Of a stretch of DNA of 64,000 nt, positions 1-62,849 are shown piece after piece. Made by a program: the position numbers and the translations under genes. This DNA comes from Paenirhodobacter populi (GTDB taxonomy: Bacteria; Pseudomonadota; Alphaproteobacteria; Rhodobacterales; Rhodobacteraceae). Under the pieces are notes generated by a model. It did not search any database. It was not told where the DNA came from and was given only the letters and a program-made list of their open reading frames with translations. How positions within the stretch are numbered: the stretch's first letter is position 1; each line of letters starts with the position of its first letter. The stretch lies in contig NZ_SAUZ01000020.1 in NCBI RefSeq assembly GCF_004022215.1, positions 1 through 64,000 on the forward strand, written 5' to 3'.

Positions 1-53
1 CCCTCTTGGCCTGCGGCCAATTAACCCCCGGGATATTTATGGAAACACGAAAG
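1..53 (+). repeat. Intergenic two-hairpin repeat, copy 1 (cut by window edge)
   Basis: This is the right part of the dispersed repeat described in the findings. It has the second hairpin TTGGCC-TGC-GGCCAA (6-20), then the core ACCCCCGGGATATTTATGG and the tail GGAAACACGAAAG. The first, G-rich hairpin lies mostly outside the window. The copy ends 22 bases from the stop of the minus-strand flavoprotein gene. Confidence 0.85.
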
Positions 54-75
54 GGAGGGGCGCGCGATGGCTTCG

Positions 76-1239
76 TCAGGTCAGTAGCGACGCCGCGGCG
101 CGGCCGGCGTGGCGGCCGGTGGCGAGGCAGCCGGTGAGCAGGTAGCCGCCCGTGGGTGCTTCCCAGTCCAGCATTTCGCCCGCGGCGAAGATGCCGGGCA
201 GGGCGCGCAGTTCCAGATCGGCGGTCACCGCCTCGCGCCGGATGCCGCCGGCGGAGGAGATCGCCTCGGCCAGCGGGCGCGGCCCGCGATGCGGCACCAT
301 GAGCCCCTTGATCCGCCGCGCCAGTGCTGTCGGGTCCGAGGGCAGCGGCCGGCCCCATTCGTTCAGGAGCGCCAGTTTCACCGGGTCGAGCCCGAGCCCC
401 TTGCGCAGCCGGTTCGCGGTGCTTTCCTTCGCCGGGATACGGGCGAGGCGCCGCGCGATCACGGCCTCCGTCGCGTCGGGCATCAGGTCGAGCGTCAGGG
501 GGGCGCCGTCGCGCACTTCGGCCGAAAGGGCATAGACGCCGCCGCCCTCGATCCCCCGTGCGGACAGGACGAACTCGCCGCGCGACAGATGCCCCGGCGT
601 GCGCAGCGCCACGCCTTTCACCGGCTGGCCCAGATGCGGGGTCATGTGTTCCGACCAAGGGATGACGAAGCCCATGTTGGCGGGGCGGAAGGGCGCGATC
701 GCGATGCCGCGATCCGCGAGCCACGGCACCCATGCGGCGTCCGATCCGAGCCTTGGCCAGCTTGCGCCGCCAAGCGCCAGCACCGTCACTGCCGCCTGTT
801 CCAAGACCGGGCCGCCCGGCGTGTCGAAGGTCAGCCTGTCGCCCTGAAACCCGGTCCAGCGCCAGCGGGTACGGATCTCGACCCCGAGGCCGGTCAGACG
901 CAGGATCCATGCGCGCAGCATCGGCGAGGCCTTCATGCCCGTCGGGAAGACCCGGCCGGTGGAGCCGGTGAACAGCTCGATCCCCAGCCCGCGGGCGAAA
1001 TCCATCGCCTCGGCCGGGCCGAAACCGGCGAGGATGTCGCCGAAATCGCCGCGATAGGCGGCATGGAAGGTGTCGGGGGCTTGGTCGCGCGTGAGGTTCA
1101 GCCCGGATTTCCCCGCCATCAGGAATTTGCGCGCGAGCGTCGGTTTTGCCTCGACCAGCACGGTGCGATGTCTGGCGCGGGCCAGTTCCTCGGCCGCCAT
1201 CAGGCCCGCCGGACCGCCGCCGATCACCAAGGCCGTCAT
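76..1239 (-). CDS. BaiN/HI0933-like NAD(P)/FAD-dependent flavoprotein (TIGR03862-type)
   Basis: The 387-residue product is a predicted soluble flavoprotein oxidoreductase of the HI0933/BaiN family. The N-terminus carries the dinucleotide-binding motif VIGGGPAGLMAAEELA followed by an acidic residue ending strand 2 (VLVEAK). The family hallmark AGKSGLNLT comes next, and the C-terminus has the second FAD-contact motif GIFAAGEMLDWEAPTGGY. The ATG at 1239 overlaps the holA stop as ATGA, which fixes the start; the open frame upstream of it is holA read out of frame. It is the last gene of the leuS-lptE-holA transcription unit. The physiological substrate is unknown; family members reduce diverse substrates, so a specific reaction should not be assigned. 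Confidence 0.85.
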   Translation of the reverse strand: MTALVIGGGPAGLMAAEELARARHRTVLVEAKPTLARKFLMAGKSGLNLTRDQAPDTFHAAYRGDFGDILAGFGPAEAMDFARGLGIELFTGSTGRVFPTGMKASPMLRAWILRLTGLGVEIRTRWRWTGFQGDRLTFDTPGGPVLEQAAVTVLALGGASWPRLGSDAAWVPWLADRGIAIAPFRPANMGFVIPWSEHMTPHLGQPVKGVALRTPGHLSRGEFVLSARGIEGGGVYALSAEVRDGAPLTLDLMPDATEAVIARRLARIPAKESTANRLRKGLGLDPVKLALLNEWGRPLPSDPTALARRIKGLMVPHRGPRPLAEAISSAGGIRREAVTADLELRALPGIFAAGEMLDWEAPTGGYLLTGCLATGRHAGRAAASLLT

Positions 1240-2261
1240 CGCCGCGCCCCCAGCATCGCCAGCCGCATCAGCGCCCGTTCCAAGAGCGCCATCTGCGGCG
1301 CCTTGGAGGCTGAGCGCAGCGTCAGGTCGGCCTCGACCAGCACTTTCAGCGCCTCTTCCAGCCGGAACATGCCCCAGCGTTGCGCCTGCGACAGAAGCTT
1401 GTCGCGGCGCGGGCCGAAGGCGGGTGGGCGCAGCCGGCCGATCCCCGCGCCCGGCCCGCCGGGGTCCGAGGCGACGATATGCAGCGACCGGAAATGCCGC
1501 AGCGCCTGAATCGCCAGCGCGACGGGCTGGATGCCCTGTCCCTCGATCCGGCGCATCATCGGGCCCAGTTCGCCGGGGCGCCCCTCTGCGACGATATCCA
1601 GCACGTCGTCCACATCCGCCTCGATCGTGGCGGGGGCGCAGGCGGCGACTTCGGATGACGCCAGCGGCGCCGGGTCGTTCCATTTGTACAGCGCGATCTT
1701 TTCCACCGTCTGACGGAAATCGCCGGGGTCGAGCATCCGTGCCAGCGCCAGCAGGTCGGTCATCGCGGCGGGGTCGATATGGCGCAGCCCGGCGCGGTGG
1801 AGGATGTCCTCGATCTCTTCGCGGCTTGGCGGATCGTCGTAGATACCGATCGCATAGGCGTTCGGATGCGCCTCGAAGATCTTGCGCAGGCCGGATTTCG
1901 CCGTCAGCGATCCGGCGGCGACGATGATCTGCGCATCGCCCTTCTGCCAGTCCTTCAGCGCGGCGGTGACGGCGGGGGTGGCGGTTTCGCTGGCGTCCTC
2001 GACAAACACCACGCGGGGGCCGGGGAAGAAGCCCACGGCCTTCACCGCATCGTTCAGCGCGGCGGGGTTCTTGCGCAATTCGCCGGCGGGCAGGCGGGTC
2101 AGGCGCATCTCGGCCTCGCCCTCCGGGCCGATCAGGGCGGCGATGACCTCCTGCCGGCGCAGGGCCACGCGCATCGCATCGGCGCCGAAGATCAGCAGGC
2201 CGGTGCGGTCCGCCTCCGGCCGTGCAAAGTAGCGCGCCGCTGCGACCCCGGTGAGCTTCAT
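1236..2261 (-). CDS. holA: DNA polymerase III subunit delta
   Basis: The 341-residue protein matches HolA, the delta subunit of the clamp loader that opens the beta sliding clamp and loads it on primed DNA. The family length is about 340 residues. Recognisable features are the N-terminal MKLTGVAAARYF start with a GADAMRVALRR segment, the FVEDASE element in the AAA-like domain, and a C-terminal helical collar domain. Delta normally lacks a working Walker A motif, and none is seen here. The gene lies 7 bases after lptE and overlaps the next gene by four bases, so translation is probably coupled. The LptE-HolA pairing is common in proteobacteria and supports both calls. Confidence 0.92.
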   Translation of the reverse strand: MKLTGVAAARYFARPEADRTGLLIFGADAMRVALRRQEVIAALIGPEGEAEMRLTRLPAGELRKNPAALNDAVKAVGFFPGPRVVFVEDASETATPAVTAALKDWQKGDAQIIVAAGSLTAKSGLRKIFEAHPNAYAIGIYDDPPSREEIEDILHRAGLRHIDPAAMTDLLALARMLDPGDFRQTVEKIALYKWNDPAPLASSEVAACAPATIEADVDDVLDIVAEGRPGELGPMMRRIEGQGIQPVALAIQALRHFRSLHIVASDPGGPGAGIGRLRPPAFGPRRDKLLSQAQRWGMFRLEEALKVLVEADLTLRSASKAPQMALLERALMRLAMLGARR

Positions 2262-2268
2262 CGCGCCA

Positions 2269-2775
2269 TCACTGCGGCAAAGAGCCCGCCTGAGCGAGCA
2301 GCCTTGTCACGATCTGATCGGCGAGGATCACCATCAGCCGCCGCCGCGCATCCTCGGAGGCGGTCTGCGTCGCCACCGCGGAACCCGAGGCCGACCACGA
2401 GGTGAAGGACGCCGCACGCCCGGTCAGCAGCACCGCATTCGTGCCGATGTCGCGCAGGGTGTAATCGACATTGCCCGACAGCGAATAGCGCGTCGTGGCG
2501 TTGTCGGGGGTGATAGCCTGACCCAGCACCTCGGTCCGGATGCCGTATTCCAGCCGGTAGCGCGGGTTGTCGGGCGGGCCGAGCCGTTCGGCAAGCTGTT
2601 CCGTCAGCGCGAATTCATCGCGCGTGCGCGGATCGGTGAAATCGACCTGCGACAGCAGCTTGCCGGCCCCGCCCGAAGGGCCATAGGCCGGGGTGAAGCC
2701 GCAGGCGGCAAGCCCCGCCCCGCCAAGCGCGACCGCGGCGAGGCGCAGGAAGGTTCTCCTGTCAGATGACGACAT
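2269..2775 (-). CDS. lptE: LPS-assembly lipoprotein LptE
   Basis: The 168-residue product is a predicted outer-membrane lipoprotein that plugs and matures the LptD barrel for lipopolysaccharide insertion. The start at 2775 gives [18 protein letters not shown], a Tat-like twin-arginine lead followed by the lipobox GLAACG, so Cys about 26 would be lipidated. The rest has the LptE-type beta/alpha pattern ([21 protein letters not shown]) and a C-terminal helix. The first 14 bases overlap the end of leuS. Longer in-frame starts would add leuS antisense-frame residues with no signal-peptide sense, so they were rejected. LptE is poorly conserved; the call rests on fold pattern plus the leuS-lptE-holA order. 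Confidence 0.85.
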
Positions 2776-5323
2776 TGACGATCCGCCCCGGCACGACGAT
2801 GAGCTTTCTGGGCTGGCCGCCGGCCAGCGCCTTGATGACAGCTTCGTCCGCCAGAACGATCTTTTCAACCTCGGATGCGGGCATGGTCTTGGGAACCGTC
2901 ACCTCGCCCCGTTTCTTGCCGTTGATCTGGATCGGCAGGGTGACGTCATCCTCGACCAGCAGGGCGGGATCGGCCTTGGGCCAGCCCGCCTGCACGACGA
3001 AACCTTCGCCGCCAAGCGCGGCCCAGATGTCCTCGGCCAGATGCGGCACCATCGGCGCCATCAGCTGCGCCATGATCTGCATCGCCTCGCGCCGGGCCGG
3101 GTTCGCGGCCTGCGTCCGGGCCATCGCATTGGCCAGCCCGTAGATCGCCGCGACCGCCTTGTTGAAGGCGAATCCCTCGATCGAGCGGGTCACCTCGTCG
3201 ATGGCGCGATGCGCGGCCTTGAGCAGGGCCAGATCCTCGGCCCCGCCCGGGCCGTCAGCCCCTTCGGCGATTTCCGAGGCGATGCGCCACACCCGGGCCA
3301 GGAATTTCGACGTGGCCTCGGCCCCCGCCGCCGTCCATTCGACGTCACGTTCGGGCGGGCTGTCGGACATGACGAAGAACCGCGCCGTATCCGCCCCGAA
3401 AGAGGCGATGATGTTCATCGGATCGACGACGTTCTTTTTCGACTTCGACATCTTGGCCGAGGGGATGATCTCGACCTTTTCGCCCGTCTCCTTCACCACG
3501 CCGGCTTCGCGGTCGATGTCCTCGGGCAGGTGATAGACCGGGCGGCCGTTGGTGTCGGTGGTCTTGTAGATCTCGTGCGTGACCATGCCCTGGGTGAAGA
3601 GCGCGTTGAACGGCTCGATCGCCTTGGCGGGCAGGTGGCCGGTCTTGTGCATCGCCCGGGCGAAGAAACGGGAATACAGGAGATGCAGGATCGCATGTTC
3701 GATGCCGCCGATATACTGGTCGACGTTCATCCAGTATTCGGTTTCCTCGGGGTCCGTCGGCGTCGTCGCATGGGGCGCGGTGAAGCGCGCGTAATACCAG
3801 GACGAATCGACGAACGTGTCCATCGTGTCCGTCTCGCGCCGCGCCGGGGCGCCGCAGTTCGGGCAGGTGGTGTCGCGCCAGGTCGGATGACGGTCGAGCG
3901 GATTGCCCGGCTTGTCGAAGGTCACGTCGTCGGGCAGGCGGACGGGCAGGTTTTCCTTCTTCTCCGGCACCACGCCGCAATTCGGGCAGTGGACGACCGG
4001 GATCGGACAGCCCCAGTAGCGCTGGCGCGACAGGCCCCAGTCGCGCAGGCGGTAGTTGGTGACGCCGCGGCCGATGCCGTTCGCCTCGCAGAAGGCGATG
4101 GCGGCGGCGATGGCATCCTCGCCGGTCTGCAGCTCGTCCCCGGCATAGCCGCGGATGTAGCGCACCTTTTCGGTCTTCGGCGGCACGTATTCGGCCTCGG
4201 GCGCGCCCTGCGGCGCGTCGGCGCCCGGCGCGATGAAGACCGGATTGATCGGCAGGCCGTATTTCGTGGCGAATTCAAAGTCGCGCGCGTCATGCGCCGG
4301 GCAGCCGAAGATCGCGCCGGTGCCGTAATCCATCAGGATGAAGTTGGCGATGTAGACCGGCAGCTCCCACGCCTCGTCCAGCGGATGGCGCACGCGGATG
4401 CCGGTATCGCGGCCGAGCTTCTCGCCCGTCTCGATGGCTTCCTCGGTGGTGCCGCCCTTGCGGCATTCGGCGATGAAGGCCGCCATGTCCGGGTCGGTCT
4501 TTTCCAGCGCCCGGGCGATCGGATGATCGGGGGAGATGCCCACGAAGCTCGCCCCCATCAGCGTGTCGGGGCGGGTGGTGTAGCATTCGATCCGGTCGAA
4601 GCCCTTGGGCGCGTTCACCGTGCCGAAGGCGAATTGCAACCCGCGCGACTGGCCGATCCAGTTCGCCTGCATCAGCCGCACCTTTTCCGGCCAGTCCTTG
4701 AGCCCGTCCAGCGCCTCCAGCAACTCGCCCGCGTAATCCGAGATGCGGAAGAACCACTGGGTCAGTTCCCTGCGCTCGACCAGCGCGCCGGAACGCCAGC
4801 CGCGCCCGTCGATCACCTGTTCATTCGCCAGAACGGTCATGTCGACCGGGTCCCAGTTCACCACCGCGTTCTTGCGGTAGACCAGCCCCGCATCCAGCAT
4901 GTCGAGGAACATCGCCTGCTGCTGGCCGTAGTATTCCGGGTCGCAGGTGGCGAATTCGCGCGACCAGTCGATCGACAGGCCAAGCGGTTTCATCTGCCCG
5001 CGCATGTCGGCGATATTGCCGTAGGTCCATTCCTTCGGATGGCCGCCGCGTTCCATCGCCGCATTCTCGGCGGGCATCCCGAAGGCGTCCCAGCCCATTG
5101 GATGCAGCACGGAGAAACCGCAGCTCATCTTGTAGCGGGCCACCACGTCGCCCATCGTGTAGTTGCGCACATGGCCCATGTGGATGCGCCCCGAAGGATA
5201 GGGGAACATCTCCAGCACGTAGTATTTCGGCCTGAGGGGGTCGTGCCTGGCGGTAAAGACGCCCGCCGCGTTCCATGCGGCTTGCCACTTCTTTTCGGAT
5301 TGCGCGGGTGCGTATGGCGTCAT
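2762..5323 (-). CDS. leuS: Leucyl-tRNA synthetase
   Basis: The 853-residue enzyme charges tRNA-Leu with leucine in the cytoplasm. The class I signature HMGH (residues 48-51, within [11 protein letters not shown]) and KMSKS (624-628, within [10 protein letters not shown]) are both intact. Between them lies the CP1 editing domain with the threonine-rich TTRPDT motif and [16 protein letters not shown] zinc-ribbon-like pair (CPNCG...CPNCG) is present near residues 440-495. Length is normal for bacterial LeuRS. It sits between a DUF3576 lipoprotein gene and lptE on the same strand. The start is the ATG followed by [20 protein letters not shown], matching the usual N-terminus of the family. Confidence 0.98.
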
Positions 5324-5442
5324 CTCGGCCTCTCGTTCTCGGTCCGCTGGCGGAATTCTGCGATGCGCTTGCTACACCGCAAGCGGGGCCGAGGTCCAGA
5401 GAGCCGGGCGTTCCCGCCCCGTTTTTCGGGGCCGGCGGCGGG

Positions 5443-5892: not shown

Positions 5893-6161
5893 CGGTGGCT
5901 GTCCCCGGAACGTGTCTTCAGGCCTGTCTGTCTCTAGCCGAAGGGCCGGGGGGCGACAAGGATTTTCCCGTGCGCGCATAAGGCGAAGGCCGCAAGCCGC
6001 CGGTCGGGCCTACTGTGGCAAGACTGCACCATGACGGGGGGCATTCGGCGGGGACCGGACTGATTCCATTGCAATGCCGGGCGGCAGGCATGAAATTGCC
6101 GACATGCTCAGCACGGATCTCACCGGGCTGGGACTTACCTTAGATACAATGAGGGAAAACG
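5893..6161. promoter_or_regulatory. Divergent promoter region, DUF3576 lipoprotein / porin
   Basis: This 269-base gap must hold promoters for both divergent genes. The 3' end near the porin is lower in GC (TTACCTTAGATACAATGAGGG), which could include a -10-like TAGATA/TACAAT, but I cannot define a convincing -35 at proper spacing. No copy of the dispersed repeat and no small gene is visible. Confidence 0.4.
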
Positions 6162-7151: not shown

Positions 7152-7170
7152 TCCTTCGGGACCGGAACGG

Positions 7171-7920: not shown

Positions 7921-7988
7921 CGCAGGGGGCCAGCCCCCTCTTGGCCTTCGGCCAATTCACCCCCGGGATATTTATGGAAACACGAAAG
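7921..7988 (+). repeat. Intergenic two-hairpin repeat, copy 2 (complete)
   Basis: This is the best full copy. Hairpin 1 is GGGGGC-CA-GCCCCC, hairpin 2 is TTGGCC-TTC-GGCCAA, and the core is CACCCCCGGGATATTTATGG with tail AAACACGAAAG. It fills the gap between the convergent stops of yggS (7910) and the L,D-transpeptidase (8001). Confidence 0.92.
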
Positions 7989-10844: not shown

Positions 10845-10937
10845 GGAAACCTCCTCTGGATAAGCAATGTTGCGCGGCCCGGGCGATTTGCGCAAGCGGC
10901 AATAACGAGGTTCCAAACTCCCCCGACGGCCCCTTCC

Positions 10938-11001
10938 CTTCATTCTTCCCAAAATATCCCGGGGGTGAATTGGCCAAAGGCCAAGAGGGGGCTGGCCCCC
11001 T
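10938..11001 (-). repeat. Intergenic two-hairpin repeat, copy 3 (complete, inverted)
   Basis: Reads on the minus strand as GGGGGCCAGCCCCC, TTGGCC-TTT-GGCCAA, then the CCCCCGGGATATTTTGGG core (note TTTTGGG rather than TTTATGG). It starts 18 bases downstream of the rmuC stop. Confidence 0.9.
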
Positions 11002-11019: not shown

Positions 11020-12156
11020 TCAGGGTTTCACCTGCATCAGCTTCGGCGGCGTTTCCGGGGCCAGTTCCTCGAAATCGAAATTGTCGAGCCGGTGGGCGCG
11101 CTTGCCCGCCTTTTCGGCCGAGATCTTGATTTCCTCGATGTCCTTCGCCGCCTGACCGAAATGCCGGTCCAGATTCGCCACTCGCGCGCCGAGCCGGTCG
11201 ACATCCTGATAGAGCGCCGCCAGTTCCTTGCGGATCGCACCCGCCTGTTCGCGCATCCTTGCATCCTTCAGCACCGCGCGCATCGTGTTCAGCACCGCCA
11301 TGCAGGTGGTGGGGGAGACGATCCAGACCTTGGCGGCAAAGCCCTCACGCACCAGTTCGGGGAAATTGGCGTGAAGCTCGGCATAGACCGCCTCGGAGGG
11401 CAGGAACATCAGCGCGCCATCGGCGGTCTCGCCCTCGATCAGGTAGCGGTCCGAAATGGCGCGGATATGGCTGCGCACGGCGATGCGCATCATCCGCTGC
11501 GCCTCGATCACCTGCGACTGGTTTTCGGCGCGGCGCAGGGCCTCGTAGGCCTCAAGCGGGAATTTGCTGTCGATGACGATGGGGCCGGGCGGGTTCGGCA
11601 GATGCACGAGGCAATCGGCGCGCCGCCCGTTCGACAGCGTCGCCTGCATCGTGTAGCTGTCGGCGGGCAGCGCCTTGAGCACGATGTCATGGAGCTGGAT
11701 TTCCCCGAACGCGCCGCGGGTCTGCTTGTTCGACAGGATGTCCTGCAGGCCCAGCACATTGCCCGACAGCTTCTCGATATTCGCCTGCGCCTTGTCGATG
11801 GCCTCCAGCCGCTGTTGCAGATCGCCCAGAGACCGCGCCGTGCGGGTGGCCGAGCCGTGCAGGCTTTCGACCATCTGCCGGTTCACCTGTCCGAGCCGTT
11901 GTTCCATCAGCGACAGCATCTTGGCCTGACTGGTCGCCTGCGCCTCGGACACGTGATGCAGGCCGCCCGCCATCTGCTGTTGCCCGTCGGACAGCGACTG
12001 CACCCTTTGGCCAAGCGCCACCAGCTGCGAGGTCAGCGGCACCACCGCCTGCGCCGAGCGCGCGGCCGACCGCAGCACGAGGATCAGCAGCACCACGATC
12101 AGCGCCACCACCGCAAGGCCGCCCAGAATCAGCGGATTGTTCAGATCAAGCTCCAT
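11020..12156 (-). CDS. rmuC: DNA recombination protein RmuC
   Basis: The 378-residue protein has one N-terminal membrane anchor (LILGGLAVVALIVVLLILVL, about residues 8-28). A long helical/coiled-coil stretch (about 40-150) follows, then the RmuC nuclease-like domain with LQDILSNKQTRGAFGEIQL, VIDSKFPLEAYEAL and GALMFLPSEAVYAELHANF. RmuC limits inversions at short inverted repeats in E. coli; its biochemistry is not settled. The ATG at 12156 overlaps the mutL stop as ATGA, so rmuC follows mutL in one unit. That pairing links two genome-stability functions. Longer in-frame starts would lie inside mutL. Confidence 0.93.
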   Translation of the reverse strand: MELDLNNPLILGGLAVVALIVVLLILVLRSAARSAQAVVPLTSQLVALGQRVQSLSDGQQQMAGGLHHVSEAQATSQAKMLSLMEQRLGQVNRQMVESLHGSATRTARSLGDLQQRLEAIDKAQANIEKLSGNVLGLQDILSNKQTRGAFGEIQLHDIVLKALPADSYTMQATLSNGRRADCLVHLPNPPGPIVIDSKFPLEAYEALRRAENQSQVIEAQRMMRIAVRSHIRAISDRYLIEGETADGALMFLPSEAVYAELHANFPELVREGFAAKVWIVSPTTCMAVLNTMRAVLKDARMREQAGAIRKELAALYQDVDRLGARVANLDRHFGQAAKDIEEIKISAEKAGKRAHRLDNFDFEELAPETPPKLMQVKP

Positions 12157-17016: not shown

Positions 17017-17082
17017 GCGCAGGGGGCCAGCCCCCTCGGGCCTGCGGCCCTCACCCCCGGGATATTTATGGAAAAACGAAGG
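17017..17082 (+). repeat. Intergenic two-hairpin repeat, copy 4 (complete)
   Basis: Hairpin 1 is GGGGGC-CA-GCCCCC. Hairpin 2 is GGGCC-TGC-GGCCC, and the core CACCCCCGGGATATTTATGG follows. It lies 18 bases from the stop of the DUF3035 lipoprotein gene. About 50 bases upstream (from 16969) also resemble the region upstream of copy 6. Confidence 0.9.
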
Positions 17083-21517: not shown

Positions 21518-21589
21518 CCCCGCGCTTCCCGCCCCGCACGACCGCGCGCGAAGAAATCGTCAAAGACCAACGCCCCGGTTCTTATGCAT

Positions 21590-21652
21590 TTCATCTTTCC
21601 TTAAATATCCCGGGGGTGAATTTGCCGCAGGCAAAGAGGGGGCTGGCCCCCC
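21590..21652 (-). repeat. Intergenic two-hairpin repeat, copy 5 (complete, inverted)
   Basis: On the minus strand: GGGGGGCCAGCCCCC, then the stem TTTGCC-TGC-GGCAAA, then CACCCCCGGGATATTTAAGG and a GAAAGATGA tail. The stem differs from that of copy 6 only 65 bases away, yet both pair perfectly. Confidence 0.9.
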
Positions 21653-21717
21653 TTCTTCCGTTCCGTTTGCACATCCGTGGGAGTTTTCGCCGGGAACGGG
21701 AATCCCCGTCGGATGGG

Positions 21718-21783
21718 GCGCAGGGGGCCAGCCCCCTCGGGCCTTCGGCCCTCACCCCCGGGATATTTATGGAAACACGAAAG
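21718..21783 (+). repeat. Intergenic two-hairpin repeat, copy 6 (complete)
   Basis: Hairpin 1 is GGGGGC-CA-GCCCCC, hairpin 2 is GGGCC-TTC-GGCCC, and the core is CACCCCCGGGATATTTATGG with AAACACGAAAG tail. The core end lies 36 bases from the dapB stop. The 50 bases upstream resemble those upstream of copy 4. Confidence 0.92.
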
Positions 21784-23871: not shown

Positions 23872-23880
23872 CCCTTTTCC

Positions 23881-23931
23881 CTTCATTCTTCCATAAATAT
23901 CCTCGGGGGTGCGGGGGCAGACAGCCCCCGC
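23881..23931 (-). repeat. Intergenic hairpin repeat, copy 7 (degenerate)
   Basis: This copy keeps the AT-rich end (CTTCATTCTTCCATAAATAT) but has CCTCGGGGGTG instead of CCCGGGGGTG. It has a single G-rich hairpin GCGGGGGC-AGACA-GCCCCCGC (23911-23931); the variable second hairpin is missing. It starts 9 bases after the phosphodiester glycosidase stop. Confidence 0.72.
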
Positions 23932-24011
23932 CGCGACGGTCCCACCCCCGCCGCGATTGACCATCGCGCCCGATCGGGGTAGCAGGCGGGCCTTCTGATA
24001 GGGAGAACGGC

Positions 24012-28801: not shown

Positions 28802-30955
28802 ATGTTCAACGTTACGAAAAAATCGATCCAGTGGGGCGGTGAAACGCTGACGCTGGAAACGGGCAAGGTCGCCCGTCAGGCCGACGGCTCGGTCATCGCC
28901 ACGCTCGGCGAAACCTCCGTCATGGCCAACGTGACCTTTGCCAAGACGGCGAAGGAAGGCCAGGACTTCTTCCCGCTGACCGTGCATTACCAGGAAAAAT
29001 ACTACGCCGCCGGCAAGATCCCCGGTGGCTTCTTCAAACGTGAAGCCCGCCCCTCCGAACGCGAAACGCTGGTCTCGCGCCTGATCGACCGTCCCTGCCG
29101 CCCGCTGTTCGTCGACGGCTTCAAGAACGAAGTTCTGGTCATGGCGACGGTCCTGTCGTGCGACCTTGAAAACGACCCGGACATCCTTGCGATGATCGCG
29201 GCCTCGGCGGCGCTGACCATTTCGGGCGTGCCGTTCATGGGCCCGATCGCGGCGGCCCGCGTCGGCTTCAAGAACGGCGCCTATGTCCTGAATCCGAAGA
29301 TGGACGAGATGGTCAACCTCCGGAACAACCCGGAGCAGCGGCTCGATCTGGTCATCGCGGGCACCAAGGACGCGGTGATGATGGTCGAATCCGAAGCCTA
29401 TGAGCTGTCGGAAGACGAGATGCTGGGCGCGGTCAAGTTCGGCCACGAACAGATGCAGCCGGTGATCGACCTGATCGTTTCGCTGGCCGAGGATGCGGCG
29501 AAGGAACCCTTCGACTTCACCCCGCCGGATTATTCCGACCTCTACGCCAAGGTGAAGGCCGCGGGCGAGGAAGACATGCGCGCCGCTTTCGCGATCCGCG
29601 ACAAGCTGGCCCGTCAGGATGCGATCGCCGCGACCATCGAGAAGGTCAAGACTTCGCTGTCGGAAGACGATCTGGCGGACAAGAACCTCGGTTCGGCGAT
29701 CAAGAAGCTGGAAAGCGCGATCCTGCGCGGCGACATCATCAACGGTGGCGCGCGCATCGACGGCCGCGACAACAAGACGGTGCGCCCGATCACCTCGGAA
29801 ACCACGGTCCTGCCGCGCACCCACGGCTCGGCGCTGTTCACCCGCGGTGAAACGCAGGCGCTGGTGGTGACCACGCTCGGCACCGGCGACGACGAACAGA
29901 TCATCGACGCGCTGAACGGCAATTTCCGTTCGAACTTCCTGCTGCACTACAACTTCCCGCCCTATTCGGTCGGCGAGGTTGGCCGCGTGGGTTCGCCCGG
30001 CCGGCGTGAGATCGGCCACGGCAAGCTCGCATGGCGCGCGCTGCAGGCGGTGCTTCCGGCGCCGACCGACTTCCCCTACACGATCCGCGTCGTGTCGGAG
30101 ATCACCGAATCGAACGGTTCGTCCTCGATGGCGACGGTCTGCGGGTCTTCGCTGTCGATGATGGATGCGGGCGTGCCGCTGAAGGCGCCGGTCGCCGGTG
30201 TGGCGATGGGCCTGATCCTTGAAGACGACGGCCGTTGGGCGGTTCTGACCGACATCCTCGGCGACGAGGATCACCTCGGCGACATGGACTTCAAGGTCGC
30301 GGGCACGTCGAACGGCATCACCTCGCTGCAGATGGACATCAAGGTCGCGGGCATCACCCCGGCGATCATGGAGCAGGCGCTTGCGCAGGCGAAGGATGGC
30401 CGGATGCATATCCTTGGCGAGATGTCGAAGGCCATTTCCGCGCCGCAGGGCTTCAGCGAATATGCGCCGAAGATCGAGACGATGCAGATCCCGACCGACA
30501 AGATCCGCGAAGTGATCGGCTCGGGCGGCAAGGTGATCCGCGAGATCGTGGAAACCTCGGGCGCCAAGGTCGACATCAACGACGACGGCATGATCAAGAT
30601 CGCGTCCTCGGATGCGGCGGCGATCAAGAAGGCCTACGACCTGATCTGGTCGATCGTGGCGGAACCGGAAGAAGGCAAGATCTACACCGGCAAGGTGGTG
30701 AAGCTGGTCGACTTCGGCGCCTTCGTGAACTTCTTCGGCAAGCGCGACGGTCTGGTCCACGTGTCCCAGATCGCCAACAAGCGCCTGAACCACCCGAACG
30801 AAGTGCTGAAGGAAGGTCAGGAAGTGAAGGTCAAGCTTCTGGGCTTCGACGATCGCGGCAAGGTCCGGCTCGGCATGAAGATGGTCGATCAGGACACCGG
30901 CGCGGAAATCGCCCCGGAAAAGAAGGAAGAGAAGAGCGAAGGCGCTGAAGCCTGA
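28802..30955 (+). CDS. pnp: Polynucleotide phosphorylase
   Basis: The 717-residue 3'-5' exoribonuclease degrades RNA phosphorolytically and is part of the RNA degradosome. Two RNase PH domains are present ([21 protein letters not shown]; then [20 protein letters not shown] and [16 protein letters not shown] with the active-site acidic residues). A KH domain ([20 protein letters not shown]) and an S1 domain ([19 protein letters not shown]) follow. The C-terminal tail is charged ([11 protein letters not shown]). Length is normal. Codon use is strongly biased towards frequent codons. Followed by a strong terminator. Confidence 0.98.
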
Positions 30956-33799: not shown

Positions 33800-33869
33800 G
33801 CGCAGGGGCGCTGCCCCTCTTTTGCCTGCCGGCAAAATTCACCCCGGGATATTTAAGGAAAGATGATGG
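33800..33869 (+). repeat. Intergenic two-hairpin repeat, copy 8
   Basis: Hairpin 1 is GGGGC-GCT-GCCCC, hairpin 2 is TTTTGCC-TGCC-GGCAAAA, and the core is CACCCCGGGATATTTAAGG (one C fewer) with GAAAGATGATGG tail. It begins 9 bases after the glycosyltransferase stop. Confidence 0.88.
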
Positions 33870-33888
33870 GAGAAATCGCTCTGCCGTC

Positions 33889-33950
33889 GTTTTTCCATAA
33901 ATATCCCGGGGGTGAGCCCGGAACGGGCGAGGGGGCGGCGCCCCCTCGGC
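33889..33950 (-). repeat. Intergenic two-hairpin repeat, copy 9 (inverted)
   Basis: On the minus strand: GGGGGC-GCC-GCCCCC, stem GCCCG-TTC-CGGGC, then CACCCCCGGGATATTTATGG and AAAAACGA. It ends 10 bases from the peroxiredoxin stop. With copy 8 it forms a pair whose cores face each other across 19 bases. Confidence 0.9.
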
Positions 33951-39565: not shown

Positions 39566-39597
39566 CCCCGGTCACGAAACTGCGCGGGTTTCTGCCC

Positions 39598-39662
39598 ATC
39601 ATTCTTCCCTAAATATCCCGGGGGTGAATTTGCGCGTTAGCGCAAAGAGGGGGCTGGCCCCC
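39598..39662 (-). repeat. Intergenic two-hairpin repeat, copy 10 (inverted)
   Basis: On the minus strand: GGGGGC-CA-GCCCCC, stem TTTGCGC-TAAC-GCGCAAA, then CACCCCCGGGATATTTAGGG and AAGAATGAT. The core lies about 33 bases from the Trm112 stop. Confidence 0.9.
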
Positions 39663-39723: not shown

Positions 39724-39787
39724 CGCAGGGGGCCAGCCCCCTCGGCGCAAGCGCCTCACCCCCGGGATATTTAGGGAAGAATGAAGG
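39724..39787 (+). repeat. Intergenic two-hairpin repeat, copy 11
   Basis: Hairpin 1 is GGGGGC-CA-GCCCCC, stem 2 is GGCGC-AA-GCGCC, and the core is CACCCCCGGGATATTTAGGG with AAGAATGAAGG tail. It ends 24 bases before the UbiH-type stop. It and copy 10 have hairpins facing inwards. Confidence 0.9.
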
Positions 39788-55925: not shown

Positions 55926-55932
55926 GACGGAC

Positions 55933-56916: not shown

Positions 56917-57304
56917 CGGGATCTCCGGGATGATTCTGTGACAAGCCTAAGACCAGCCGCGCGGCGCGGATCGGGGCGCGGAGGCGGCGTCCCCCGCAAA
57001 GCATGGAAGGCCGATCGAACGGGCAGATTTCCGCGGGATTTGCCTGAAGGTTGGGCATATGGTGAGAAAACCACCCGTCGCCGCGGGTTTGCGGGCAAGG
57101 CATTGGGCAAATCCCGGTGCGGGCGGCACCGTGCGGACGAGCAATCGGGAGCGCGGCGCGTGCGGAGAGGGAGGCAGGGGGCCAGCCCCCTCGCGCGTGC
57201 CGCGCTCACCCCCGGGATATTTGTGGAAGAATGAAGGCAGGAGGGAGCTTCGGGTGGTTTTGAAATGCTTTTGACGGCCGGGCGGGCGAATGGACAGGAG
57301 GATC
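56917..57304. promoter_or_regulatory. Divergent control region of the catabolic locus
   Basis: This 388-base gap lies between the divergent binding-protein gene and RidA-like gene. It contains repeat copy 12 (57173-57238) and a 10-bp inverted repeat, GGGATTTGCC at 57035-57044 and GGCAAATCCC at 57106-57115, separated by 61 bases. The inverted repeat could be a regulator site, but no regulator gene is adjacent. No small gene is visible. Confidence 0.5.
57173..57238 (+). repeat. Intergenic two-hairpin repeat, copy 12
   Basis: Hairpin 1 is GGGGGC-CA-GCCCCC, stem 2 is GCGCG-TGC-CGCGC, and the core is CACCCCCGGGATATTTGTGG with AAGAATGAAGG tail. This copy alone lies in a divergent gap, upstream of the RidA-like gene, with no adjacent stop codon. 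Confidence 0.9.
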
Positions 57305-57697: not shown

Positions 57698-57728
57698 GCT
57701 AGAGCTGGCGCCGACTCAGGAGGCAAGA

Positions 57729-58355: not shown

Positions 58356-58382
58356 CCCGCCGATCACCCCCATCCCGGCGGC

Positions 58383-59033
58383 ATGAGCGATTTCGTCTAT
58401 ACCCCCACCAGCGAACAGCCCCGGATCCTGCATGAGGATCACGAGATCCTTGTGGTCGACAAGCCCGCGGGGCTGTTGTCCGTGCCGGGCAAGGGCGAGG
58501 ATCGCGCCGATTGCCTGATCGCGCGGCTGCGCGGGCCCTGGCCCACGGTGCTGCTGGTGCATCGGCTGGATCTGGATACCTCGGGCGTGATGGTCTTTGC
58601 GCTGACGCCCCATGCGCAGCGCCATCTGGGCCTGCAGTTCGAGCACCGGCAGACGAAGAAGCAATATGTCGCGCGGCTCTGGGGCCGGCTGGAGCCGAAG
58701 GAGGGGCGGGTGGACCTGCCGCTTTGCGTCGACTGGCCGAACCGTCCGCGCCAGCATGTGGATTTCGAGAATGGCCGCGCGGCGCAGACCGACTGGCGGG
58801 TGATGCGGTATGAGGGCGACACGACGCGGGTGCGGCTGACGCCGCTGACCGGGCGCAGCCATCAGTTGCGGGTGCATATGTGCGAACTCGGCCATCCGAT
58901 CCTTGGCGATCCGCTGTATGCCGAAGGCCCGGCGGGCGATTTCCCGCGCCTGATGCTGCATGCCGAGAGCCTGCGCCTGCGCCATCCGGACGGCGGGAAG
59001 CACATGACCTTCAGCGCGCCCTGCCCGTTCTAG
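58383..59033 (+). CDS. RluA-family pseudouridine synthase
   Basis: The 216-residue single-domain enzyme has the catalytic aspartate in VHRLDLDTSGVMVFAL and the RluA-specific TGRSHQLRVHMCELGHPILGDPLYA. RluA modifies U746 of 23S rRNA and U32 of tRNAs in E. coli. The absence of an S4 domain and the short length fit RluA rather than RluC or RluD. It follows LysE by 27 bases. Repeat copy 13 starts 44 bases after the stop. Confidence 0.9.
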   Translation: MSDFVYTPTSEQPRILHEDHEILVVDKPAGLLSVPGKGEDRADCLIARLRGPWPTVLLVHRLDLDTSGVMVFALTPHAQRHLGLQFEHRQTKKQYVARLWGRLEPKEGRVDLPLCVDWPNRPRQHVDFENGRAAQTDWRVMRYEGDTTRVRLTPLTGRSHQLRVHMCELGHPILGDPLYAEGPAGDFPRLMLHAESLRLRHPDGGKHMTFSAPCPF

Positions 59034-59076
59034 GGGGTGGTTTCCGGGCGCGGTTGGTGCTGGCGGATGGGTGGGA

Positions 59077-59139
59077 AAGGGGGCGCCGCCCCCTCGGCCT
59101 TCGGCCTCACCCCCGGGATATTTTCGGAAAGATGAATGG
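59077..59139 (+). repeat. Intergenic two-hairpin repeat, copy 13
   Basis: Hairpin 1 is GGGGGC-GCC-GCCCCC, stem 2 is GGCC-TTC-GGCC, and the core is CACCCCCGGGATATTTTCGG with AAAGATGAATGG tail. It lies between the convergent RluA stop (59033) and WGR stop (59161). Confidence 0.9.
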
Positions 59140-59160
59140 GAGACTGCCCCGAGGGCGGTT

Positions 59161-59409
59161 TCAGCTTGGCCGGGGACCGGCAACGTATTCCTCGGTCAGG
59201 GAATAGCCGCGGCGTTGGGCCCCCCTGCGCCAGTGGTCGGCGGCCTGTGCCGCCTCGCGCAGGTTGCCGTAAAGGCGGATGCGCAGGCCGAGGCTGCGCC
59301 CCTGCCGCCCCCATTCGCGCGCGACGCTGTATTCGCCGAACAGGTTGTTGGTCAGATCGACGCGGTAGAAGCCCTGCGTGGGCGCGCGGTGCAGGATCAG
59401 GGACAGCAT
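59161..59409 (-). CDS. Single-domain WGR protein
   Basis: The 82-residue protein is essentially one WGR domain: RVDLTNNLFGEYSVAREWGRQGR and LYGNLREAAQAADHW. WGR domains are best known from PARP family proteins, where they bind DNA ends. Free-standing bacterial versions are common but their role is unproven. No PARP or polymerase partner is near. ATG 59409 has no good RBS, yet the length matches the family. The 170 bases before rpmJ's terminator hold nothing else recognisable. Confidence 0.82.
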   Translation of the reverse strand: MLSLILHRAPTQGFYRVDLTNNLFGEYSVAREWGRQGRSLGLRIRLYGNLREAAQAADHWRRGAQRRGYSLTEEYVAGPRPS

Positions 59410-59576
59410 GGCAGGGCTCCGAGGGACTGCCCTATCGAATCACACACGGGGCATCGGCGCAAGCCTGCGGTGAGGCGGAATGTGGCGGAGGCACATTTCG
59501 CGTGAGGTCGCTTTGCCGTCTTGGCATCAGCCGGGGAGGGCCGCGATGTTTCGGAAAGCTCCGGGTGTCCATGACG

Positions 59577-59604
59577 AAAAGGCCGCATGGTTTCCCATGC
59601 GGCC
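59577..59604 (-). terminator. Rho-independent terminator after rpmJ
   Basis: On the minus strand the 10-bp stem GGCCGCATGG / CCATGCGGCC with a GAAA loop is followed by TTTTC. It lies 25 bases after the rpmJ stop. Confidence 0.88.
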
Positions 59605-59628
59605 CGGAATTCGTCGCTGCAAGCGATA

Positions 59629-59754
59629 TCAGCCCTGACGGGCCTTGAACCGCTTTTGCGTCTTGTTGATCACGTAGACGCGGCCTTTGCGGCGCACGAT
59701 CTGGCAATCGCGATGACGCTGCTTGAGCGAGCGGAGCGAGTTGCGGACCTTCAT
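59629..59754 (-). CDS. rpmJ: 50S ribosomal protein L36, zinc-free type
   Basis: The 41-residue protein is bL36: [20 protein letters not shown] then [21 protein letters not shown]. Only one cysteine remains (RDCQ), so this is the zinc-independent (C-minus) paralogue. RBS AGGAGGA lies 6 bases before ATG 59754. It is monocistronic, with a terminator just downstream. It lies 69 bases downstream of the tRNA-Val gene on the same strand. Confidence 0.96.
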
Positions 59755-59822
59755 CGGTCTTCCTCCTGGTCGCGGCGCGCGTGCGCCTTGAAACAGATGT
59801 GCCCCCCGGAGGGAGCGGTGAA

Positions 59823-59897
59823 TGGTGGGCGGTACTGGGATCGAACCAGTGGCCACTACGATGTCAACGTAGTGCTCTACCGCTGAGCTAACCGCCC
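59823..59897 (-). tRNA. tRNA-Val(GAC)
   Basis: A complete cloverleaf reads on the minus strand: acceptor GGGCGGT/ACCGCCC, D-arm GCTC-AGCGGTA-GAGC, anticodon arm CTACG-TTGACAT-CGTAG with anticodon GAC, and T-arm CTGG-TTCGATC-CCAG. The discriminator A is at 59826 and CCA is encoded (59823-59825). It decodes GUC and GUU. Confidence 0.97.
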
Positions 59898-60031
59898 ACA
59901 ACCTTGGCGATCGGGCGGAGGAACCGCTCAACCTCTTCGGTTTGGGGGTCTATAAAAGGACTCCGGGCGGCTTGCAAGAGGGTATTGGAAGGAAATCAAA
60001 ACGGTGTAGTCTGCCGTTGTAAGGAGTGATC

Positions 60032-60898
60032 ATGGCCCCCGTGCAACACGACAGGCTGCCCTATATCCTGCAGCGACCGGCGCGGGTGACGGCGCCGGTG
60101 ATCTTTTCCTCGCCCCATTCCGGGCGGGACTATCCGGAAGGCATGATCAGCCGTTCCATCCTTGACGAAAGGCGGCTGCGGTCTTCCGAGGATGCCTTTG
60201 TGGACGATCTGCTGGCTTCGGCCCCGGCGCGGGGGGCGGCGCTTCTGGCGGCGCGCTATCCGCGCGCCTATGTCGACCTGAACCGGGCCGAGGATGAACT
60301 CGACCCCGCATTGATCGAGGGGTTGCTGCGGCCGCCGCGCGGGGCGCGGGTGATGGCGGGGCTTGGGGTGATTCCCCGCGTCGTCGCCGGCAACCGCCCG
60401 ATCTATGCCGGCAAGCTGCCCCGCGCCGAGGCCGAGGCCCGCCTTGCCGCCGTCTGGCGCCCCTATCACGCCGTGCTCGCCGCCCTCCTGGGCGAGGTGC
60501 GCCGCCGATTCGGCCGGGTGATCCTGTTCGACATGCATTCGATGCCCTCCGAGGCGGTGGACCAGATGGGCGAGCGCCGCCCGGACATCGTGCTGGGCGA
60601 TCGCTTCGGCGTCGCCGCGCGGTCCGAAACCACCGCGCAGGTGGAGGCGGTGTTCAGTTCGCTCGGCCTGCGGGTGGCGCGCAACGCGCCCTTTGCCGGG
60701 GCCTATATCACTCAACGCTATGGCCGCCCCGCCGAGGGAATCGAGGTCGTGCAGATCGAGATCAACCGCGGCCTCTACATGGACGAGGCGCATGTCATCC
60801 GGTCCGAAAGCTACGACGTCTTCGCCGCGCTGATGGAGGATGCGGTGGCAAGGCTGCTGGACATCTGGCGCGAGCCGGGGCGGATGGCGGCGGAATGA
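60032..60898 (+). CDS. N-formylglutamate amidohydrolase family protein
   Basis: The 288-residue zinc-type hydrolase is of the FGase (PF05013) family: PVIFSSPHSGRDYP with the first histidine, the VDLNRAEDELDP pattern, ILFDMHSMPS and VVQIEINRGLYMDE. HutG-type members cleave N-formylglutamate in histidine degradation. No hut genes are nearby, so the exact substrate is uncertain. RBS AAGGAG lies 5 bases before ATG 60032, while a GTG two codons earlier is less likely. The stop abuts that of dinB. Confidence 0.92.
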   Translation: MAPVQHDRLPYILQRPARVTAPVIFSSPHSGRDYPEGMISRSILDERRLRSSEDAFVDDLLASAPARGAALLAARYPRAYVDLNRAEDELDPALIEGLLRPPRGARVMAGLGVIPRVVAGNRPIYAGKLPRAEAEARLAAVWRPYHAVLAALLGEVRRRFGRVILFDMHSMPSEAVDQMGERRPDIVLGDRFGVAARSETTAQVEAVFSSLGLRVARNAPFAGAYITQRYGRPAEGIEVVQIEINRGLYMDEAHVIRSESYDVFAALMEDAVARLLDIWREPGRMAAE

Positions 60899-62164
60899 TC
60901 AGTCCGGCGGCGTGAAGCCGCGCCCGCGCAGGATCGCATCCTTGCCGAATTTCTCGCGGATCCGATCCATCGCGCGTTCCGCCCCGGCACGGCGCCCGGC
61001 CTGCGGGTCGAGCAGATCGCCCACCGGGTCGCGCCCGTCGGCGGGTGTGAGGTCCGAATAGCCCGCGCCGATCAGCCGGAAAGGCCCCTTCTCCGGCAAT
61101 GCCGACAGCAGCCCCTGCGCGGCGCGGAACAGCGTATCGGCAAGCTGCGCGGGTTCATCCAGCCGCACCTGCCGCGACAGCGCCGAAAAATCCGCCCGAC
61201 GCAGTTTCAGCGTCACGGTGCGGCCCTGAAGCTCCTTCGCCTTCATCCGCGCCGCGGTCTTTTCGCACATCAGCCACAGATGCGTTTCCAGCAGGCCGCG
61301 GTCGGCAATGTCCTCGTCGAAGGTCGTCTCGCTCGACACCGACTTGACCGGCGCATCGGGGGTGACGCGGCGGTGATCCTCGCCCTGCGCCAGCGCGTAA
61401 AGCCGCGCACCCGAGGGGCCGAGCCGCTCGACCAGCCGCCGTTCCCCGGCGCGGCGCAGGTCGGCCAATGTCCGCAGCCCGGCACGCGCCAGCACCGTCC
61501 GCGTCGCCTCGCCCACGCCCCACAGCAGCGACACCGGCTTGTCGCGCAGGAAATCCGCCGTCTCGGCCCGGCCGATCACCGAAAAGCCGCGCGGCTTGTC
61601 GAGATCCGAGGCGATCTTCGCCAGAAACTTGTTGTGCGACAGCCCGATGGAAACGGTGACGCCGATCTCCGCCTCGATCTCGCGGGCGAGGCGGGCCATC
61701 TGCGCGGCGGGCGGCGCGTGATGCAGCCGCTCCGTCCCGCCGAGGTCAAGGAAGGCCTCGTCCAGCGACAGCGGCTCGATCAGCGGGGTCAGCGCCTCCA
61801 TCTTCGCCCGGATCTCGCGCGAGACGGCGGCGTAATGCGCCATGCGCGGCGGCAGGACCACCGCATCGGGGCACAGCTTCAGCGCCTGAAACATCGGCAT
61901 GGCCGAGCGCACGCCGGAAATCCGCGCGATATAGCAGCAGGTCGAGACCACGCCCCGCTTGCCGCCGCCGACGATGAGCGGGCGCGAGGACAGGGCGGGG
62001 TTGTCGCGCTTCTCGACCGAGGCATAGAAACTGTCGCAGTCCAGATGCGCGATCGTCAGCGAGAACAGTTCGGGATGCGACAGCACCCGCGGCCCGCCGC
62101 AGTTCGGGCAGCGGGCCGGCGCGGTATCAAACGGGGTAAGGCAATCGCGGCACAGGCTGGGCAT
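60899..62164 (-). CDS. dinB: DNA polymerase IV with N-terminal zinc-ribbon
   Basis: The 421-residue Y-family polymerase performs translesion synthesis. The catalytic acidic residues are Asp42 and Asp44 in IAHLDCDSFYASVEK and the pair in EPLSLDEAFLDL. IGLSHNKFLAKIASDLDKPRGF marks the palm. A little-finger domain follows. Residues 1-25 carry CRDC and CPNCGG (Cys5, Cys8, Cys19, Cys22), a zinc-ribbon not present in E. coli DinB. The beta-clamp binding motif at the C-terminus is not clear. ATG 62164 keeps this extension in frame; no closer start with a better RBS is seen. Confidence 0.93.
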   Translation of the reverse strand: MPSLCRDCLTPFDTAPARCPNCGGPRVLSHPELFSLTIAHLDCDSFYASVEKRDNPALSSRPLIVGGGKRGVVSTCCYIARISGVRSAMPMFQALKLCPDAVVLPPRMAHYAAVSREIRAKMEALTPLIEPLSLDEAFLDLGGTERLHHAPPAAQMARLAREIEAEIGVTVSIGLSHNKFLAKIASDLDKPRGFSVIGRAETADFLRDKPVSLLWGVGEATRTVLARAGLRTLADLRRAGERRLVERLGPSGARLYALAQGEDHRRVTPDAPVKSVSSETTFDEDIADRGLLETHLWLMCEKTAARMKAKELQGRTVTLKLRRADFSALSRQVRLDEPAQLADTLFRAAQGLLSALPEKGPFRLIGAGYSDLTPADGRDPVGDLLDPQAGRRAGAERAMDRIREKFGKDAILRGRGFTPPD

Positions 62165-62223
62165 GGGGGCAAGGCATCAGGGACATGACCAGTCTAGCGC
62201 CTTGCGCCGCGCTGCGCGAGGGA

Positions 62224-62631
62224 TCACTCCGCCGCGTGGCGCTCGCTGCGGTCGACCGGACGCGGGCGCCCGTCTTCATCGACGGCGACCATGGTGAAGC
62301 GCGCCTCTGTCACCTTTTCGCGCAGCGCGGTGTAGCAGCGCCGCGCCCAGACCTCGATCCGGATGACCATGGAGGTGCGGCCGATCTGATCGACGGCGGT
62401 ATAGACGCACAGCGTGTCGCCGACCTTGACCGGCTTCTTGAAAACGATCTCGTTCGCGGCGATGGTGACGGTGCGGCCGTTGCTGCGTTCATTGGCGCGG
62501 ATCGCCGCGGCCAGATCCATCTGCGACATCACCCAGCCGCCAAAGATATCCCCCGCCGCGTTGGTGTCGGCAGGCATGGCAAGGGTGCGCAGGGTCAGTT
62601 CCATCCCCTCGGGGGCAGTGCTCTCGCTCAT
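62224..62631 (-). CDS. YciA-type acyl-CoA thioesterase
   Basis: The 135-residue hotdog-fold thioesterase hydrolyses acyl-CoAs. The signature PADTNAAGDIFGGWVMSQMD contains the conserved Asn and Asp of the YciA type. RTVTIAANEIVFKKPVKVGD and RCYTALREKVTEA follow. The N-terminus is short. ATG 62631 has an AGGAG site. It precedes clpB in the same direction only after repeat copy 14 and lies divergently upstream of nothing else. Substrate chain length is unknown. Confidence 0.9.
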   Translation of the reverse strand: MSESTAPEGMELTLRTLAMPADTNAAGDIFGGWVMSQMDLAAAIRANERSNGRTVTIAANEIVFKKPVKVGDTLCVYTAVDQIGRTSMVIRIEVWARRCYTALREKVTEARFTMVAVDEDGRPRPVDRSERHAAE

Positions 62632-62771
62632 TTTCAGGCTCCTGTCAGGACCTCCCGTCCCGCCTATGACATGGTGTCGCATCGCGACTCAACCCCCCGC
62701 AAAGGAAATGCTGCATTGCAGAAAGATCAAAAGGGGCGCTCGCGCGCCCCTTCCAGCCGTTCTCCGGCTGT

Positions 62772-62849
62772 CGTTTTTCCATAAATATCCCGGGGGTGAG
62801 CGGCCCCAGCCGAAGGATGGGGCCGCGAGGGGGCAGCGCCCCCTGCGCC
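62772..62849 (-). repeat. Intergenic two-hairpin repeat, copy 14 (inverted, longest stem)
   Basis: On the minus strand: GGGGGC-GCT-GCCCCC, then the extended stem GCGGCCCC-ATCCTTCGGCT-GGGGCCGC, then CACCCCCGGGATATTTATGG and AAAAACGA. It starts 2 bases after the clpB stop. The 8-bp stem and 11-base loop are larger than in other copies. Confidence 0.9.

Follow-up and report, generated by a model that had tools for sequence, protein, structure and literature searches.

A dispersed palindromic element characteristic of the Rhodobacteraceae and its possible role at the 3' ends of messages

The first 64,000 nucleotides of contig NZ_SAUZ01000020.1 of Paenirhodobacter populi (assembly GCF_004022215.1), hereafter the window, carry fourteen copies of a dispersed palindromic element of about 65 bp, and they raise the question of what this element is and what it does at the gene ends where it lies. 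The candidates put forward in the original prediction were a mobile element of the repetitive extragenic palindromic (REP) type, a 3'-end element of mRNA and a protein-binding site. Here we put it at about an even chance (roughly 0.5) that the copies belong to a Rhodobacteraceae-specific, REP-like family free of any REP-associated tyrosine transposase (RAYT), which would serve as an mRNA hairpin and processing module at gene ends and would have spread without a Y1 transposase encoded in the same genome. Many gene ends in a large and well studied family, the relatives of Rhodobacter, Paracoccus and Roseobacter, share this one unnamed fold, and if it does set mRNA 3' ends or stability, it would affect how expression is read and engineered in its carriers. 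It is also a REP-like family without a known mover, with a conserved and testable copy between purS and purQ.

The element consists of one to three GC-rich hairpins followed by a C-run, four mostly purine bases, the pentamer TATTT and a purine-rich tail with a sequence characteristic of the genome in question. The base preceding TATTT, when left free in the search, was a purine in 211/211 cases (a few copies lying in two fetched pieces were counted twice), and when the five bases following the four purines were left free, they read TATTT in 191/205. Adjoining strong hairpins, this stretch forms an AU patch in an otherwise GC-rich RNA. A further regularity concerns the lengths of the runs: hairpin 1 and the core, ahead of its four purines, have C-runs of the same length in 72 of the 76 unique elements collected outside the P. 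populi genome (Spearman 0.96 for the core run with the C-run of hairpin 1, 0.66 with its G-run) and in 77 of 93 strings from the family-wide pattern search (Spearman 0.81), where at least five of the 16 exceptions match the G-run instead, three of these sharing a C with the second hairpin. In P. populi itself the rule is broken in 2/83 copies, and all eight copies with a core run of 4 have a hairpin run of 4 (2x2 table 8, 1, 0, 75; p 2e-10), although the p values are not independent tests, because the copies are related. Equality of the C-runs persists with linkers longer than 8 nt (53 strings, Spearman 0.75). Either of two causes could lie behind the rule: a single G-run that can pair with both C-runs in turn, or slippage that makes the runs equal. 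In eight P. populi copies another hairpin module, the third, with a length of ~42 nt and a CTTCCACTGGAAG-like apex, separates the second hairpin from the core, and this module stands in tandem at C1:299501-299543 (region G000:C1:299400-299660).

The claim that the second stem changes its letters while its pairing is kept was borne out above shuffles both in the linkers that form this hairpin and in copies with a single hairpin. Among 105 unique second-hairpin linkers the mean longest perfect stem was 5.18, against 2.65 for shuffled letters; in the 14 unique linkers of 18 nt, pairs 2-5 were kept in 13, 13, 14 and 12 of 14, the shuffle means being 6.7, 7.8, 8.3 and 6.8. Pairs in fixed register show swaps of C-G to G-C and of T-A to G-C; the set of 17-nt linkers is small and mixed, with pairs kept in 3-4 of 5. 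In the 26 unique one-hairpin copies the two outer pairs were kept in 25/26 and 23/26, values that 0/2000 shuffles reached in either case: the first pair outside the G-run is C-G in 19, T-A in six and something else in one, and the second is C-G in 16, G-C in six, T-A in one and something else in three. The next position outward is unpaired (pairing possible in 1/26). Copies within a genome are paralogues, so orthologous sites provide better evidence of kept structure.

Such a site is the purS/purQ gap. Across 18 genomes of the genus (P. populi included) the element is intact and in the same orientation in 13, altered in three (G202 is without the second C-run; G215 and G216 have a changed TATTT) and absent in two (G199 and G205). 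Hairpin, C-run, TATTT and position are kept although PurQ differs by 11-22% from that of P. populi, a conservation that speaks for selection and makes a strong terminator less likely. The view that the structure is under selection thus finds its best support in an orthologous site that is kept across the genus while stem letters and hairpin number change. The head has two hairpins in P. populi and G200 and one in the others, and was probably changed in place, judging from these sequences; the tail of the P. populi copy is of that genome's own type. The pair counts given above do not draw on the MAFFT alignment of the site, in which the class A and CCAG-loop rows are misplaced. The tail of the purS/purQ copy runs, in most of these genomes, directly into the likely ribosome-binding site (CAGGAG) of purQ, and the element may therefore also affect translation downstream.

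The genome-wide collection of cores suggested in the original prediction yielded, using CCCCGGGATATTTA with at most one mismatch, 360 occurrences in P. populi (4.78 Mb, 91 contigs) and 0 for the reversed control. These and all other counts are defined by the search patterns, which miss degenerate copies. All 18 genomes of the genus were positive, with 19-341 cores each, and in a survey of 198 family genomes, one per genus except for two of the same genus as P. populi, the core at the same threshold was present in 129. A more general pattern (G4, loop, C4, 2-30 nt, CCGGNRTATTT) was found in 143/198, its control giving one match each in two family genomes. In a class-wide draw, 11 of 289 genomes matched: P. 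populi, two other members of the family and eight genomes outside it, with 1-2 matches each, about four of which look like the real element. The element is thus a family hallmark of the Rhodobacteraceae. A further pattern, applied to 77 loci around one protein in named genomes (1.53 Mb), gave 17 matches and 0 in the codon-shuffled control; one of the 17, inside a gene call and with AAAA before TATTT, was set aside as chance. Named carriers include Thioclava, Rhodobacter capsulatus, Cereibacter, Tateyamaria, Gemmobacter, Thalassovita and Phaeobacter. The 76 bases of one copy matched 11 plasmid records in 1-2 places each, all from genera of the Rhodobacterales (four assigned by taxonomy entry, the rest by genus name), and had 0 matches in phage records, and a phage origin was rejected on the latter result.

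Position relative to genes was determined in P. populi from the window plus ~0.8 Mb of fetched stretches, ~18% of the genome. None of 93 placed copies lay inside a called gene (95 cores were found, 93 of them placeable between two called genes). Copies stand just behind stop codons, in either orientation, and are densest between convergent genes: convergent gaps contain 45 of them, tandem gaps 41 and divergent gaps 7, or 3.33, 0.73 and 0.28 per kb, and a copy is held by 37/84 convergent, 35/311 tandem and 7/101 divergent gaps. In three other genera 9/11, 6/9 and 6/12 elements were in convergent gaps. Unpaired copies in tandem gaps keep close to the upstream gene: when on the same strand, the core starts 39-99 nt behind the upstream stop in 13/16, and when reversed, 10/13 have 16-50 nt between that stop and the tail side of their core. 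The 60 kb fetched from C3 and the 60 kb fetched from C6 are free of copies, whereas the other fetched contigs hold 10-20 per 100 kb; two cores lie further along C3. The RepC family PF03428 was found on C21 and C34 only, so that C3 and C6 are not callable as plasmids.

Within the window itself, the core with up to three mismatches matched 15 times, against 2.78 expected by chance (sd 1.73, largest 7). Fourteen of these matches are the copies read originally, and the fifteenth, at 63509 with three mismatches, is spurious and lies inside a clpB-like gene. Ten of the 14 cores are exact, three have one mismatch and one has two. The number of copies therefore stands, and the second stems were found as first read; the plan of two hairpins fails for copy 7, which has one, and is seen in part for copy 1. 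The copies are as follows.

Copy 1, 1..53, + strand: hairpin 1 lies beyond the window edge; second hairpin TTGGCC/GGCCAA, core and tail can be read.
Copy 2, 7924..7988, + strand: 3' of the stop of an Ala_racemase_N-domain gene whose convergent neighbour has a YkuD domain; second stem TTGGCC/GGCCAA.
Copy 3, 10937..11001, - strand: 3' of the stop of an rmuC-like gene (11020-12156); second stem TTGGCC/GGCCAA.
Copy 4, 17021..17082, + strand: opposite to both neighbours, tail facing the stop of a DUF3035 gene; second stem GGGCC/GGCCC.
Copy 5, 21588..21653, - strand: between convergent genes, head-to-head with copy 6; second stem TTTGCC/GGCAAA.
Copy 6, 21722..21783, + strand: tail facing the dapB stop, head-to-head with copy 5; second stem GGGCC/GGCCC.
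Copy 7, 23880..23932, - strand: single hairpin GCGGGGGC/GCCCCCGC and variant core CCCCCGAGGATATTTA.
Copy 8, 33804..33869, + strand: hairpin 1 and core both with runs of 4, forming a tail-to-tail pair with copy 9; second stem TTTTGCC/GGCAAAA.
Copy 9, 33884..33946, - strand: 3' of an AhpC/TSA-family gene, tail-to-tail with copy 8; second stem GCCCG/CGGGC.
Copy 10, 39596..39662, - strand: head-to-head with copy 11; second stem TTTGCGC/GCGCAAA.
Copy 11, 39727..39787, + strand: tail facing the stop of a FAD-binding (FAD_binding_3) gene; second stem GGCGC/GCGCC.
Copy 12, 57176..57237, + strand: in a divergent gap, among the few such copies; second stem GCGCG/CGCGC.
Copy 13, 59078..59138, + strand: 3' of a pseudouridine synthase-domain gene; second stem GGCC/GGCC.
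Copy 14, 62768..62844, - strand: 3' of a clpB-like gene; second stem extended; a canonical intrinsic-terminator-like site lies further downstream.

At the convergent junctions of copies 2 and 6, three congeners have an element at the matching position and in the matching orientation, with a single hairpin and a different core. At those of copies 3, 4, 10 and 11 the congeners compared (three, three, five and five) have no element, the orthologous gap at copies 10 and 11 measuring 8-30 bp in five congeners; these copies are therefore gains in the P. populi lineage or losses elsewhere. The window also holds, at 28802-30955, a gene with the domains of PNPase, an exonuclease that 3'-end hairpins would block.

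How might such an element act? In an mRNA processing module, the transcribed hairpins would be a barrier closing the upstream message on its 3' side, and RNase E, whose consensus is RN/WUU, may cut in the adjacent AU-rich patch, to judge from sequence compatibility. The module would then trim and protect 3' ends and could uncouple neighbouring genes of an operon, reversed copies acting presumably as hairpins only; copies would have spread, exchanged heads and tails and become homogenised without a Y1 transposase of the same genome. We propose processing on the basis of the AU patch by the hairpins together with passages of PMC6238624, which state a preference of RNase E for AU-rich single strands, R. 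sphaeroides included, and a dependence of the segmental stability of puf mRNA on RNase E sites and hairpins. The earlier candidate of a 3'-end element agrees with the position behind stop codons, but it has to accommodate copies in both orientations and between genes that look cotranscribed.

A number of points weigh against the processing-module reading. In the tandem gaps of P. populi 22 copies are on the same strand as the genes and 19 on the opposite one, which is nearly neutral; a strong orientation bias would be expected of a strand-specific element of the 3' untranslated region (UTR), and that version was rejected. TATTT is found on one strand only, so that a cut site does not explain the reversed copies. 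Only ~2% of mapped RNase E sites in R. sphaeroides fall in 3' UTRs, according to a passage of PMC6238624. The folding energies of five window strands are within the range of dinucleotide shuffles (z -0.43 to 1.45), since the sequence is GC-rich throughout, and fold energy, being ordinary for the composition, was rejected as structural evidence. Genes were called with a home-made periodic Markov model. Finally, we infer every step of this reading, from transcription of the element and cotranscription of its neighbours to cutting and protection. Outside P. populi, same-strand and opposite tandem copies numbered 0 to 2, 2 to 0 and 1 to 3 in the three other genera, and 9 to 1 in the named loci, a set in which sites of related species are repeated and at least one call is a gene-calling error (L164, where the neighbour is convergent); this set suggests a same-strand preference, and our conclusion is not rested on it.

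Foremost among the other explanations is a bidirectional terminator, whose strong hairpins would halt RNA polymerase arriving from either of two convergent genes. We regard it as unlikely, though less so than those that follow. It would account for the excess in convergent gaps, in P. populi as in the three other genera, and for an orientation that hardly matters in P. populi; canonical terminator-like sites are, moreover, rare at the convergent gene ends of this genome (20/134). However, such sites are equally frequent at convergent ends with the element (10/73) and without it (10/61), so that the element does not visibly replace canonical terminators, and no U-tract follows directly after the hairpins in either direction. 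In addition, short tandem gaps hold copies in the pairs purS-purQ (same strand), ruvA-ruvB (reversed) and soxB-like/soxD (reversed), as does one between aldehyde dehydrogenase and GMC oxidoreductase genes (same strand, with hairpin 1 imperfect), all these neighbours being named from Pfam domains, and further copies lie between annotated iolC and iolD on two Paracoccus plasmids. The purS-purQ, ruvA-ruvB, soxB-like/soxD and iolC-iolD pairs are normally cotranscribed, and copies between genes of this kind argue against a strong terminator, which we have lowered on this account and on the terminator counts.

The manner in which copies multiply bears on the next alternative, that of a classical REP, or a REP doublet forming a hairpin (REPIN), which was moved by a since-lost RAYT (Y1) transposase and survives as decaying remnants. 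The extragenic, palindromic layout in hundreds of copies agrees with it, as do the copies in P. populi at sites that are element-free in the congeners compared. Dimers provide a further likeness: in stretches of the congener G210, chosen because they hold pairs, the copies of 15/15 close pairs lie tail-to-tail, with a spacing of 45-58 bp in 12, and most partners have complementary core and tail, giving long arms, with heads that are often unlike, which is the REPIN layout. (Gene strand calls on these fragmentary stretches looked unreliable and were left out.) In the P. populi stretches most copies are single, and the 13 close pairs comprise eight tail-to-tail and five head-to-head. The search for a REP-associated transposase (TnpA_REP), proposed as a check on the original prediction, came out negative: the Y1 transposase family (PF01797, E <= 0.001) had 0 matches in the P. 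populi genome and in 0/18 genomes of the genus. It was present in 18/198 family genomes, 15 of which have <=6 pattern matches. The REP-type candidate therefore keeps its layout and lacks the transposase in P. populi, in the genus and in 180/198 family genomes. There is also no GTAG tag in the flanks of the P. populi copies, on which grounds, with the absence of Y1 in the genus, RAYT/REP membership was rejected; sequence is kept at orthologous sites, unlike in decay; and heads and tails are unlinked. On balance a lost RAYT seems improbable, somewhat more so than a terminator.

The last of these points rests on the P. populi copies, in which four discrete tail types (GGAAGAATGA, GGAAAGATGA, GGAAACACGA and GGAAAAACGA) account for 80/84, with few intermediates; in another genome the tail reads CTC[GA][AG]TGAA in 12/12 elements seen. 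Of pairs of P. populi copies with identical second hairpins (n=141), 20% share a tail, as against 23% of all pairs, and the mutual information between tail and second hairpin, like that between tail and hairpin 1, is no higher than in shuffles (143/1000 and 130/1000 reach it). Heads and tails are thus unlinked within ~65 bp among these copies. Hairpins 1 and 2 are linked (0/1000 shuffles reach their mutual information), and tail type has no association with junction type (chi-square p 0.16). Taking these patterns together, we tentatively suggest, as a broader picture that we hold to be possible and well short of probable, that the family-wide elements are Y1-independent elements of RNA or single-stranded DNA, that head and tail cassettes are exchanged freely between dispersed copies, that existing sites are converted in place to the type of the lineage, and that the ~65-bp elements co-evolve with a trans-acting partner, the Gn-Cn-Cn rule marking a switch between two equal C-runs as alternative partners of one G-run.

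A site in duplex DNA for a nucleoid or topology protein, gyrase or IHF-like as for bacterial interspersed mosaic elements (BIMEs), would profit from the supercoils that collect at convergent ends, and would suit the orientation neutrality, the convergent bias and the sequence-specific core and tail; it leaves unexplained the compensatory changes in two hairpins and the run-length rule, and we think it quite unlikely. Equally doubtful is an origin of the compensation and the equal runs in template switching at inverted repeats during replication, which can turn imperfect palindromes perfect, runs of G and C slipping readily, but which does not account for the hairpin, C-run, TATTT and position kept at purS/purQ across the divergence of PurQ, for the retention of the unpaired TATTT or for C-runs that are equal even more than 8 nt apart.

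It remains to place the element beside known systems. With intrinsic terminators it shares a GC-rich hairpin behind the stop codon and a convergent bias, and it differs from them in lacking a U-tract directly after the hairpin (the nearest T-run, 3-5 T long when the T after TATTT are counted with it, begins past the core C-run and the four purines), in its conserved tail, in its occurrence in both orientations and in its presence between cotranscribed-looking genes. Rfam gave only a tRNA at gathering score in the window and nothing on the element at that score in eight related loci, where weak matches over or beside it, at E 0.09-0.42, were below gathering. Literature searches by topic and by sequence, in which subscription journals are little covered, gave no description of it among the matches listed, and these searches and Rfam together suggest that the element is undescribed so far.

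The CGTC-tagged REPs, as described in parts of PMC3733652, are likewise alphaproteobacterial and palindromic, form dimers and have no dedicated transposase. There they have an unpaired CGTC/TGTC/CCTC foot, an 8-9 bp stem starting with AT and a short CCA-like tail; foot, AT stem start and CCA tail did not appear in the flank profile or the element sequences of P. populi. The dimers of G210 are tail-to-tail, an arrangement that is rare for CGTC REPs according to the same source. These families are stated there to occur in all orders of the alpha division. The main text of PMC3733652 has 0 matches to 11 taxon names (Rhodobacter, Ruegeria, Paracoccus, Roseobacter, alphaproteobacteria, Rhodobacterales, Dinoroseobacter, Jannaschia, Silicibacter, Hyphomonas and Caulobacter), which is no proof of absence, genus names being abbreviated in it.

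In its working and its layout the element is like REP and BIME sequences, and it shares with these and with REPINs the features given in parts of PMC2817692 and PMC6006769: they are short extragenic palindromes with copy numbers from tens to hundreds, they form inverted dimers, their stems change without loss of pairing, and each genome has a sequence type of its own. Among the features by which RAYT-associated REPs are recognised, the element has the extragenic palindrome in high copy number and the inverted dimers, and has neither a Y1 transposase in the genome nor the GTAG/GTGG that these sources place at the hairpin foot. The flank of 83 P. populi copies contains no GTAG, with A at -1 in 95% and C or A at -2 in 83%. 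Without these two features and without the CGTC foot, the element is not filed as a member of either group. It differs further from REPs and REPINs in its constant 3' module of some 25-30 nt (C-run, purines, TATTT and tail), in the run-length rule and in having one to three hairpins. In the processing-module reading, a counterpart would be the intercistronic processing and stability hairpins of Rhodobacter puf, as presented in passages of PMC6238624; the element, known here from sequence alone, differs from these in its hundreds of similar dispersed copies, and shares with them hairpins and a nearby AU-rich patch between the genes of an operon.

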